Shown here in pieces: positions 11,607-13,742 of a stretch of DNA of 38,844 nucleotides (the stretch's first letter is position 1; each line of letters begins with the position of its first letter). The notes beneath the pieces were generated by a model, which saw nothing but the letters and a program-made list of their open reading frames with translations, made no database searches and was not told where the DNA came from. A program made the translations under genes and the position numbers. The DNA lies in NCBI GenBank assembly GCA_019637115.1, contig JAHBWH010000066.1, positions 1 to 38,844 of the forward strand, written 5' to 3'. Source of the DNA: Myxococcales bacterium. GTDB taxonomy: Bacteria; Myxococcota_A; Polyangia; Polyangiales; Houyiibacteriaceae.

Positions 11607-13742
11607 TCACTCCCCGTCGGTCGGCTGCCGGAGCTGCTCGAAGCGCTCCTGCAAGCGCTGCCGCCGGAGCTCGTCCTGGCTGCGCTTGCGGGTCCAGGCA
11701 TACGCGAAGCTCGCGACGATGATGGCGACCCCGAGCAGGAGCGCGAAGATCACGAGCCGAGTGCGCGTGTCGCCAGGTGCCGGGCGTGGCTCGGCGCGAA
11801 CGACGGTCGGCGCGCCGGCGAGCTCGGGCGCCCGCGGCCGCACGACCGTCTCGGTTGGCTCGCGGGTCGGCCGCAAGCTGCGGCTCATCTGAGCGAGCTC
11901 CTCGAGTCCGTCTCCCGCCTCGCGCGCCTCGGGGGGATGTAGGTCGGCCGAGGCGGTCTGTGGCGGGGAGAGGCCCTCGGGCGACGGTCGGGTGACGCTC
12001 GGCGCCAAGGCCTCGACGTCCTCGAGCCTCAGCTCCTGCGTCCGCTCCTTCCGCGGCTTCGCCGGCACCGAGGGATCGAGCGGGACCTCCTCCTCTTCGT
12101 CCGCCTCGAGATCCTCGAGCCGCAGCTCCTGCGTCCGCTCCTTCCGCGGCTTCGCTGGCACCGAGGGATCGAGCGGGACCTCCTCCTCTTCGTCCGCCTC
12201 GAGATCCTCGAGCCGCAGCTCTTGCGTCCGCTCCTTCCGCGGCTTCGCCGGCACCGAAGGATCGAGCGGGACCTCCTCCTCGACGCTGTCGGCGATGGCC
12301 ACCCCGAGGGCGACCCGCACGAGGCGAGGATCGAGCTCGCCCGAGTCCTCGCCGCCCAAGTCGCTCGGCGCCCCGCATCGGGGCTCGTCCTCGCCGAGCG
12401 CCGCCCGGACCAGCCGCGGGTCGAGGCCCTCGCCGCGCGCGAGGCCTTCGCCGCGCACGAGGGATCCGTCGGCGGCGGGTACGCTCGTCAGCACCGAGAG
12501 GTGGTGGGCGCCCTCCCCCTCGGCGCCGCGGCTCAGCTCTGGCGCGCCGCCCGACGCGGCCGCCGCGCGGACGAGCCGCGGGTCGATGCCGACGAGCCGC
12601 GGGGTCGCGACGGGAGCCTTCGGCGCGCGCCTCGCCCCCGCGAGCAGCGCCTCGGCGTCGGCGGCGCTCAGCGCCGGGAGCTTCTCGGTGCGCATCTCGT
12701 CGAGCACCGCGCGCGCCGCGTCCGGCAGCGAGAGCTCCTTCGGCAACCCCGCGATGACGTCCGAGCTCGGCGCGGACATCCTCGACGCGGACGGCGCGGA
12801 CGGCGCGGACGGCGCGGACGACGGCGCGGACGAGAGGGGACGCACGTGGCCGAAGGCGGCCGGATCGAGCTCCGGCACGGGCAAGCCCGTGACCCGCGCC
12901 AGGGCCTCGAGGAGCGGCTCCAAGCTCTCGGCGCGCTCGTGTGGGCTCGGGTGCAGCAGCGCGCCGAGCGGGGCGGCGAGGACACCGAGGGACGCGCTGA
13001 CGGCTTCGCCCGGCGAAGGCGGTGGCTGCAGCGTCAGCATCTCGTGGGCGATGGCCGCGACCGCGTAGCGATCCGACGCGGCGCTCGAGTCGCCGACCAA
13101 GACCTCGGGCGCGAAGCGACGACGGAGGTCGCCGTGTCGACCGAGGACCGCGGCGACCGCCCCCTCGGGCAGGGCGGGCACGAAGAACGCGCCCGTGAGC
13201 TGCAGGCGGTCGGGATCGACCCAGACGAGCGCCGCGTGGACGTCGCCGTGGTGGGCGCCGGGTGGGATCGCCGCGAGCGCCGCGTCGAGGAAGGCGAGGA
13301 CCGGCAGCAGCTCGGTCGGAGAGACGCGCCGGCCGCCGTGGATGCGGCGATCGAGGAAGTCGCGGAGGGTGACGCCGGTGGGGACCGGCTCGGTGGCGTA
13401 GACGAACGCTCCGTCACGATCCGCGTCGAGCATCCCCGGCAGGAAGCGCCCACCGACGCCGACGTGGCGCTGCAGCGCGCGAACGACGGCGCCACGATCG
13501 GCGGACTCGAGCAGCTCTGCGCGGACGACCCGCAGGAGCACGGGCTCCTCGCTCTCGTGATCGAGCGCGAGGAAGCCGTGCGAGAACGCGTCGTCGCGCA
13601 GACGCCCCCGCACCTCGTAGCGCTCCCCGATCACGTCGCCGCGCCGGACGGTCGGCGGCGCGAGCGGTGACCCCGTGACCGCCGTCGCGTCGCTGAGGCG
13701 CTGCGTCGGCCGCGGCTGGGGCGGCGGGGTCGATTCCATCAT
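11607..13742 (-). CDS. Membrane-anchored Ser/Thr pseudokinase with repeat-rich linker
   Basis: 711 aa. Residues about 40-300 follow the bacterial Ser/Thr kinase fold (GERYEVRGRL at the start, APE at 211-213, SDRYAVAAIAHEML at about 223-235), but the catalytic residues are gone. The Gly loop has no glycines, the VALK lysine is Arg71, HRDxKxxN is HGDVHAALV (165-173) and DFG is TGAFF. A long disordered linker follows, with three LDPRLVR motifs and three near-identical 31-aa acidic/basic repeats (EVPLDPSVPAKPRKERTQEL core). One membrane helix (about 660-680) and a short charged tail end the protein. The start has GAGGGG upstream; 13739 is an equally good alternative. It lies 10 bp after dut on the same strand, probably co-transcribed. 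Likely a signalling scaffold. Confidence 0.8.
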   Translation of the reverse strand: MMESTPPPQPRPTQRLSDATAVTGSPLAPPTVRRGDVIGERYEVRGRLRDDAFSHGFLALDHESEEPVLLRVVRAELLESADRGAVVRALQRHVGVGGRFLPGMLDADRDGAFVYATEPVPTGVTLRDFLDRRIHGGRRVSPTELLPVLAFLDAALAAIPPGAHHGDVHAALVWVDPDRLQLTGAFFVPALPEGAVAAVLGRHGDLRRRFAPEVLVGDSSAASDRYAVAAIAHEMLTLQPPPSPGEAVSASLGVLAAPLGALLHPSPHERAESLEPLLEALARVTGLPVPELDPAAFGHVRPLSSAPSSAPSAPSAPSASRMSAPSSDVIAGLPKELSLPDAARAVLDEMRTEKLPALSAADAEALLAGARRAPKAPVATPRLVGIDPRLVRAAAASGGAPELSRGAEGEGAHHLSVLTSVPAADGSLVRGEGLARGEGLDPRLVRAALGEDEPRCGAPSDLGGEDSGELDPRLVRVALGVAIADSVEEEVPLDPSVPAKPRKERTQELRLEDLEADEEEEVPLDPSVPAKPRKERTQELRLEDLEADEEEEVPLDPSVPAKPRKERTQELRLEDVEALAPSVTRPSPEGLSPPQTASADLHPPEAREAGDGLEELAQMSRSLRPTREPTETVVRPRAPELAGAPTVVRAEPRPAPGDTRTRLVIFALLLGVAIIVASFAYAWTRKRSQDELRRQRLQERFEQLRQPTDGE
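12021..12285. repeat. Three 93-bp in-frame tandem repeats inside the pseudokinase gene
   Basis: Units begin at 12021, 12114 and 12207, spaced exactly 93 bp apart, and encode 31-aa repeats. They differ by only a few mostly synonymous bases, so the duplication is recent or kept uniform by recombination. Confidence 0.88.

Follow-up and report, generated by a model that had tools for sequence, protein, structure and literature searches.

A membrane pseudokinase next to dut in a Myxococcales bacterium, with recurring threonine and DPR motifs in a disordered linker

A pseudokinase gene in a core-gene neighbourhood

What might a membrane protein with a degraded kinase fold do when the linker between that fold and the membrane carries the same short motifs several times over? 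This question is raised by a gene of the window, a term used here for the whole stretch of 38,844 nucleotides that was analysed (contig JAHBWH010000066.1 of the Myxococcales assembly GCA_019637115.1). The gene and its neighbours are:

11607..13742, minus strand: membrane pseudokinase gene, 711 codons (711 aa), defined by its open reading frame and its orthologues
13753..14202, minus strand: dut, conserved neighbour (dUTPase, E 2.9e-28)
11088..11414, plus strand: thioredoxin gene, convergent neighbour (Thioredoxin, E 6e-34)

Within the class, 21 of 289 genomes, its own included, hold a match at E ≤1.6e-87, with the next match at 1.3e-39, and these 21 constitute the orthologous family, in which loci L003-L016 carry no stops inside the match. 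The gene had been described initially as adjoining dut. Indeed, dut lies immediately upstream of it, and the two adjoin in 16 of the 21 orthologues (among the remaining five, one reading frame starts at a contig edge). The window has the convergent thioredoxin gene, as do 10 of the 14 orthologue loci compared; the gene was not found on the contig of the same-genus genome G001. The family has no Pfam match and is a conserved part of a core-gene neighbourhood that contains dut and often pnp and trx. A single-sequence search with the window protein returned no Pfam family, the 13 orthologues searched against Pfam gave one weak kinase match (E 0.0076), and the NCBIfam score of the window protein was 19.2 bits against a cut-off of 460. 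The window also encodes, at 9203-10624 on the minus strand, a Ser/Thr kinase with intact-looking catalytic motifs that is fused to a response-regulator receiver domain; this gene is not a conserved neighbour in the 14 orthologue loci compared.

The kinase fold and its catalytic residues

The N-terminal half of the protein contains the following features:

12852..13643, minus strand: pseudokinase domain, about residues 34-297 (AlphaFold2, Foldseek, VIA and PDB profile match)
13239..13253, minus strand: HHGDV, equivalent of the HRD catalytic loop, with its Asp kept (alignment)
13665..13691, minus strand: N-terminal DATAVTGSP motif, residues 18-26, with T20 as a candidate phosphosite (orthologue alignment)

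By profile and by model, the domain is predicted to adopt the bilobal fold of eukaryotic-like Ser/Thr kinases. The AlphaFold2 model, based on 15 aligned orthologous domains, has a mean pLDDT of 85.7 over residues 1-330; its best Foldseek match is mycobacterial PknA (E 6.5e-13), for which VIA gives a Z of 24.1 and an rmsd of 2.8 over 239 residues, while the domain profile matches Stk1/PknB of Staphylococcus aureus in the PDB at E 2e-14.

The initial annotation held that every catalytic motif had been lost. With the register taken from an alignment to Stk1 and residues counted over the 21 orthologues, this is correct for the glycine loop, which is lost, for the VAIK (beta-3) lysine, which is Arg in 20 of 21, and for the DFG Asp, which is absent from all 21 (column 185: A 8, P 7, G 5, S 1; residues 185-187 of the window protein read AFF). 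It is incorrect for the HRD loop, which survives as HGD, with H165 in every orthologue and D167 in 18 (Glu in three). The catalytic-loop Asn is likewise absent from 21 of 21 (column 172: R 12, L 3, H 3, Q 3). The APE motif and the SDRYAVA helix were said to be retained, and P212, E213 and D224 are indeed found in all 21 orthologues, as is R270, and A211 in 19. Since the lysine has become Arg and the glycine loop, the DFG Asp and the catalytic-loop Asn are lost, the protein is a pseudokinase by the usual criteria and does not qualify as an active Ser/Thr kinase. The impairment looks old, because relatives outside the orthologous family each lack at least one catalytic residue: in a dut-linked relative from genome G066 the glycine loop, VALK and DFG are all present and HGG stands in place of HRD, and four dut-linked relatives of another family, together with the relative in G120, keep the lysine and have HGA at the HRD position. 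Ahead of the fold, T20 is invariant in all 21 orthologues, within residues (18-25) modelled at pLDDT <50.

The linker and the membrane anchor

Between the kinase fold and a single C-terminal transmembrane helix lie approximately 360 mostly disordered residues; apart from the motifs treated below, the features of this part are:

11700..11756, minus strand: transmembrane segment, residues 663-681, with a charged helical tail after it (hydropathy 2.72)
12639..12689, minus strand: TEKLPALSAADAEALLA, third linker segment common to near orthologues, residues 352-368 (alignment with L033)
12486..12512, minus strand: GAHHLSVLT, fourth linker segment common to near orthologues, residues 411-419 (HHLSV in 4 of 18 linkers)

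In the full-length model the linker, its repeat region included, is mostly below pLDDT 50, with short modelled helices at 388-397, 443-446 and 472-478, i.e., at the three DPR motifs described below, and at 360-371. This last helix is that of the TEKLPALSAADAEALLA segment, from which KLPAL is found in 3 of 18 linkers. The assignment as a membrane protein is sustained by the hydrophobic segment at residues 663-681, which is modelled inside a helix spanning 660-705 (block pLDDT 82-90 over 661-700 in the full-length model). Such a C-terminal segment is found in 17 of the 21 orthologues. Of the remaining four, three end prematurely at a contig edge and one, L203, lacks it.

The DPR motif

12561..12587, minus strand: DPR motif 1, IDPRLVRAA, residues 386-394 (modelled helix 388-397)
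12399..12428, minus strand: DPR motif 2, GLDPRLVRAA, residues 439-448 (short modelled helix 443-446)
12309..12338, minus strand: DPR motif 3, ELDPRLVRVA, residues 469-478 (modelled helix 472-478)

Three LDPRLVR motifs had been reported in the linker, and the count is right: (L/I)DPRLVR begins at residues 386, 440 and 470, three occurrences where shuffled linkers lead one to expect 0.0005. Across the family, 28 strict sites are distributed over 14 of the 21 orthologues, with 0-3 in each (0.0 expected from shuffled linkers), and the seven orthologues without a strict motif comprise one that is cut off, two with LDPDLV and four with neither. The pentamer DPRLV is common to 12 of the 18 de-duplicated linkers, while the top 5-mer in 100 shuffles was common to no more than 4. 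When deeper relatives are included, 37 sites display the core (L/I)DPR(L/F)(V/L)RAA with variants, and the ninth residue, which the search pattern left free, is Ala in all 37.

It had also been suggested that LDPRLVR-type motifs be sought in other kinases of the genome. The strict sequence LDPRLVRAA gives two matches in the genome, both inside the pseudokinase gene, and is therefore not present in its other kinases. With a relaxed pattern there were 10 matches, fewer than the 12 of the reversed control, and the eight outside the gene, judged by eye on fragments in the pattern frame, contain nothing kinase-like. Over 57 genomes, including this one, the strict pattern gave 28 matches against two in reversed controls, 19 of them in orthologues; the other nine were rejected by eye as wrong-frame or unrelated, for example in an asparaginase-like and a response-regulator-like protein.

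The threonine repeat

12196..12288, minus strand: 93-bp tandem repeat copy with T506; TQELRLEDLE at 12198-12227
12103..12195, minus strand: 93-bp tandem repeat copy with T537; TQELRLEDLE at 12105-12134
12010..12102, minus strand: 93-bp tandem repeat copy with T568; TQELRLEDVE at 12012-12041

The three near-identical 31-residue (93-bp) repeats noted earlier are arranged in tandem, the copies at 12103-12195 and 12196-12288 being 96% and 89% identical, respectively, to that at 12010-12102. Their core reads T-Q-E-[L/I/V]xx[D/E][D/E][L/I/V], and the invariance of its threonine, missed in the initial annotation, is new here. The search pattern left positions 1 and 2 free and specified E/Q/N/K/H at +2, I/L/V at +3, an acidic residue (or Q) at +6 and +7 and I/L/V at +8; near-duplicate orthologues L199, L200 and L202 were left out of the threonine and k-mer counts, reducing 21 orthologues to 18. 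Position 1 is Thr at 28 of 28 sites, and never Ser, in 12 of these 18; the six orthologues without a site by this pattern include two that are cut off by contig ends. The loosest pattern yields 29 sites, 28 with Thr and one with His, and if +3 is freed while Ser or Thr is specified at position 1, the 32 sites found include 29 with Thr and L/I/V at +3, the exceptions being one Thr with Arg and two Ser with Glu or Ala at that position. Serine is nevertheless the commoner residue in the linkers (431 versus 290 Thr). The nominal chance of 28 Thr in 28 is 8e-12, or 2e-5 if each orthologue is counted once, both figures being optimistic because the orthologues share descent.

A narrow-codon TQE pattern gave four matches in the genome against none in controls. 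One lies in the gene; the three others include DDTQEIALDEVE at the N-terminus of a coiled-coil-like protein. A wider pattern applied to the 57 genomes gave 23 matches against none in controls, 14 in orthologues and nine elsewhere. Five of these nine sites were read individually and the other four encode TQELGQDDL, as does L097; the sites in L097 and L107 look like disordered tails, and that in a PanB-like enzyme is probably due to chance. Unlike the DPR motif, the threonine motif is therefore not private to this gene. More distant, dut-linked relatives possess comparable sequences: all four that were read from another family have DVDTGEIEL(L/I)D(E/D) as their final residues, preceded by an IDP(R/K)LL motif, and the relative in G066 carries TQQLSMDDLE and THQLSLDDLE. 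As a side observation, L107 is a transporter-like membrane protein that ends in DTQEISADEID followed by repeated GGETLDDL.

Copy number and constraint

Motif number varies across the orthologues, from 0 to 3 for DPR and from 0 to 4 for TQE. There are three repeat units in the window, two plus a diverged one in L033 and three in each of L032 and L037, and L044 has four TQ sites; this genome is a draft of 434 contigs, and assembly could affect repeat number. The nearest relative, L033, belongs to G001, which is another species and the sole other same-genus genome among those searched. Between any two of the three 75-nt unit cores of the window there are 3 to 5 differences, whereas comparison of the three with unit 1 of L033 gives 13, 12 and 15 differences, 13, 12 and 14 of them synonymous; two of the window units are identical to that L033 unit in protein sequence, and the third has one non-synonymous difference. 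At four-fold sites, the window copies differ among themselves in 4 of 44 cases, against 7 of 15 relative to L033 (Fisher p 0.003, the comparisons being overlapping and non-independent). Because the window copies are near-identical and the L033 differences nearly all synonymous, the sequences support a duplication or homogenisation of the DNA copies after the split from G001, with the protein unit held. The repeats had been called recent, and homogenisation in this lineage, supported by 3-5 differences within the window versus 12-15 to L033, is in keeping with that description.

Using segments defined only by repetition inside the window protein, dN/dS for the repeat and DPR segments is 0.33 against L033 and 0.36 against L034, the same values as for the kinase fold (0.33 and 0.36), and the rest of the linker reaches 0.78 and 0.82; all of these ratios are rough because divergence at synonymous sites is large (pS about 0.5). 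A ratio of 0.085 was obtained when the motifs were chosen in part by comparison, and the window-defined 0.33 is preferred to it. The C-terminal part from residue 656 on, the transmembrane segment included, also stands at 0.78 against L033, and the constraint is therefore not spread over the whole protein.

Beyond the orthologues, looser dut-linked or trx-linked versions in other families have a cysteine-rich N-terminus that appears zinc-ribbon-like by eye. Loci L047-L050 and L210 encode paralogous pseudokinase proteins with one transmembrane segment, in which we take one segment to be GYF-like and the end to be TonB-C-like, names assigned by eye. On contig C23 of the genome under study, a paralogous pseudokinase gene lies ~4 kb from two FHA matches. 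Furthermore, the dut-linked relative L205 has kinase motifs that are nearly complete, the sequences TQQL and THQL, a transmembrane-like segment and a C-terminus that contains SGNVSEW and resembles formylglycine-generating enzymes.

A candidate docking scaffold and its alternatives

The multivalent docking scaffold proposed initially is well supported as an interpretation: the linker is modelled as disordered, its motifs recur, their number varies, and they are constrained above the rest of the linker. We place at about even chances a more specific arrangement, a membrane-anchored scaffold that combines a dead or severely impaired kinase fold with phosphothreonine/FHA docking and DPR docking, where we infer the phosphorylation, the kinase and the FHA partner. 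The kinase fold would provide a folded binding platform, the C-terminal transmembrane helix would act as an anchor that holds the complex at the inner membrane, and the disordered linker would form a multivalent docking strip with two classes of motif, the helical DPR and the repeated threonine motif. An active Ser/Thr kinase would phosphorylate T506, T537, T568 and perhaps T20; an FHA-domain protein would bind the phosphothreonines with Leu/Ile/Val at +3, several repeat copies would raise avidity, and the DPR helices would bind a second partner.

The phosphothreonine/FHA reading is favoured because Thr at position 1 is invariant and never Ser. FHA domains read the +3 residue. The repeat motif thus has what is expected of an FHA-read phosphothreonine, Thr in preference to Ser and a hydrophobic +3 residue. 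The genome has 38 FHA matches, with none on the contig of the window. According to excerpts of the literature, FHA domains prefer phosphothreonine to phosphoserine (PMC3146460), and one FHA domain that also binds phosphoserine is known (PMC4238996).

The invariant Thr could instead serve a non-phosphorylated interface. We consider it unlikely, if the most serious of the alternatives, that the scaffold works independently of phosphorylation, its motifs binding their partners as unmodified peptides, the DPR motif in the form of a capped helix and TQE in that of an extended strand, with the Thr in the interface. The invariant motif cores, the disordered linker and the helices modelled at the DPR sites would suit such a mode; the lack of any Ser in 28 sites, despite linkers richer in Ser, seems unusual for a plain contact. 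Quite improbable, in our estimation, is a regulation in cis, by which the motifs would dock on their own pseudokinase domain, perhaps a nucleotide-binding one, and control its state. The conserved HGD Asp and beta-3 Arg speak for it, as do the DYD and DLHK pseudokinases, which have similar remnants and, in excerpts of a 2025 review, are modelled to bind ATP (PMC12599244), but the repeat region mostly remains below pLDDT 50 in the full-length model.

Two further readings appear very improbable. The linker repeats might be neutral low-complexity expansions devoid of a role, in line with the many short tandem repeats in the window (25 rows) and with the almost free evolution of other linker parts; against this, the window units differ from unit 1 of L033 by 13/0, 12/0 and 14/1 synonymous/non-synonymous changes, the repeat and DPR segments have a lower dN/dS than the rest of the linker, and the same motif cores recur in other families. 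Similarly, the DPR motif might mimic the FtsZ C-terminal peptide and thereby tie the scaffold to the division ring. FtsZ was compared over 57 genomes, including this one (54 with a match, C-termini read at 30 loci), and many have the tail LDIPAYLRR, which shares with DPR the pattern LD..P..(L/Y)(L/V)R. The match entails one residue of offset, however, and the Arg after the pattern is Gln in 4 and Glu in 1 of the 37 DPR sites, exceptions that occur entirely or almost entirely in deeper relatives, so that the resemblance is weak and is left as a minor rival. The one FtsZ match of the genome (G000:C403:17769-18716) has a score similar to that of the weaker second FtsZ copy in some relatives, and the usual FtsZ may be absent from the draft assembly.

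For the phosphothreonine-dependent scaffold, the family offers a testable mechanism. The window protein has three candidate phosphosites that are nearly identical, a second motif is conserved as well, and the number of sites in natural variants runs from 0 to 4, which would allow direct measurement of avidity and valency.

Comparison with known systems

Excerpts of the 2025 review describe seven bacterial pseudokinase families (PMC12599244), and the strings 'myxo', 'sandaracin', 'polyang' and 'deltaproteo' have 0 occurrences in its text. The nearest precedent is MviN (MurJ)-FhaA of Mycobacterium, of the ActPs3 family, which would share its logic with the protein described here, with more sites in the latter. 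Both have a membrane protein with a dead Ser/Thr-kinase fold, and a phosphorylated tail bound by an FHA protein would be common to both (PMC12599244; PMC11898655, excerpts); PknB phosphorylates the MviN tail, which then recruits FhaA, as the review excerpts state (PMC12599244). In contrast to MviN, the protein lacks a flippase part, has a single C-terminal transmembrane helix and, besides repeated Thr sites, a helical motif of a second kind, and its host lies outside the actinobacteria. In addition, the ActPs3/MviN type has all three catalytic motifs degraded and an activation-loop deletion, whereas the HRD Asp is kept here. Neither MviN nor EssB is among the 50 VIA matches listed, which decides nothing on relatedness.

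The other comparisons draw on the same excerpts. The DLHK pseudokinases also keep the HRD Asp and have degraded ATP and DFG motifs (PMC12599244), but they have no transmembrane region and an Asn ending the HRD loop, as opposed to a transmembrane segment in 17 of 21 orthologues and no Asn in column 172 here. DYD pseudokinases, reported from actinobacteria and firmicutes (PMC12599244), are similarly membrane-associated with the lysine changed to Arg (20 of 21 here; PMC12599244); they differ by the DYD motif and the catalytic-loop Asn, in place of AFF at 185-187 and no Asn in column 172. GLW pseudokinases, as excerpted, have GLW for HRD, and here it is HGD. EssB/YukC of type VIIb secretion is another transmembrane pseudokinase, whose kinase fold is degraded and whose role is structural (PMC12599244); its description in the excerpts includes no motif-bearing linker (PMC12599244), and Pfam named no secretion genes among the window ORFs scanned. 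EcpK of Myxococcus xanthus is a myxobacterial pseudokinase too, by its title a tyrosine pseudokinase of exopolysaccharide synthesis.

Outside bacteria, yeast Rad53 and the SQ/TQ-cluster (SCD) proteins provide, in the excerpts of PMC3146460, repeated TQ sites read as phosphothreonine by an FHA domain. That system is eukaryotic, its kinase and exact motif differ, and the TQ sites here are candidate phosphosites. It is possible, if doubtful, that the family is a counterpart of it: a dead kinase at the membrane that would show interchangeable phosphothreonine sites, their number tuned by gain, loss and homogenisation of units between lineages, together with a private DPR helix for a second partner, kept since before the families of the order split. 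In a literature collection with few subscription journals, no mention of the LDPRLVR motif was found, and the titles and abstract openings listed on bacterial and myxobacterial pseudokinases, Sandaracinus kinases and FHA repeats contain nothing on the family.

Other features of the window

By Pfam, a phosphonate-type gene group occupies window 28180-35049:

31345-32952, minus strand: PEP mutase with a nucleotidyltransferase domain (Pfam)
30195-31343, minus strand: TPP enzyme (Pfam)
28180-29889, minus strand: class-V aminotransferase (Pfam)
29274-30131, minus strand: NTP transferase (Pfam)
33862-35049, plus strand: type I phosphodiesterase (Pfam)

A homologue of the neurotransmitter-gated (pentameric ligand-gated) ion channels is encoded at window 1765-3018 on the minus strand (ligand-binding domain, E 1.7e-21). 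Finally, hexanucleotide tandem arrays are found at window 1602-1741 (23.3 copies) and 5538-5666 (21.5 copies).
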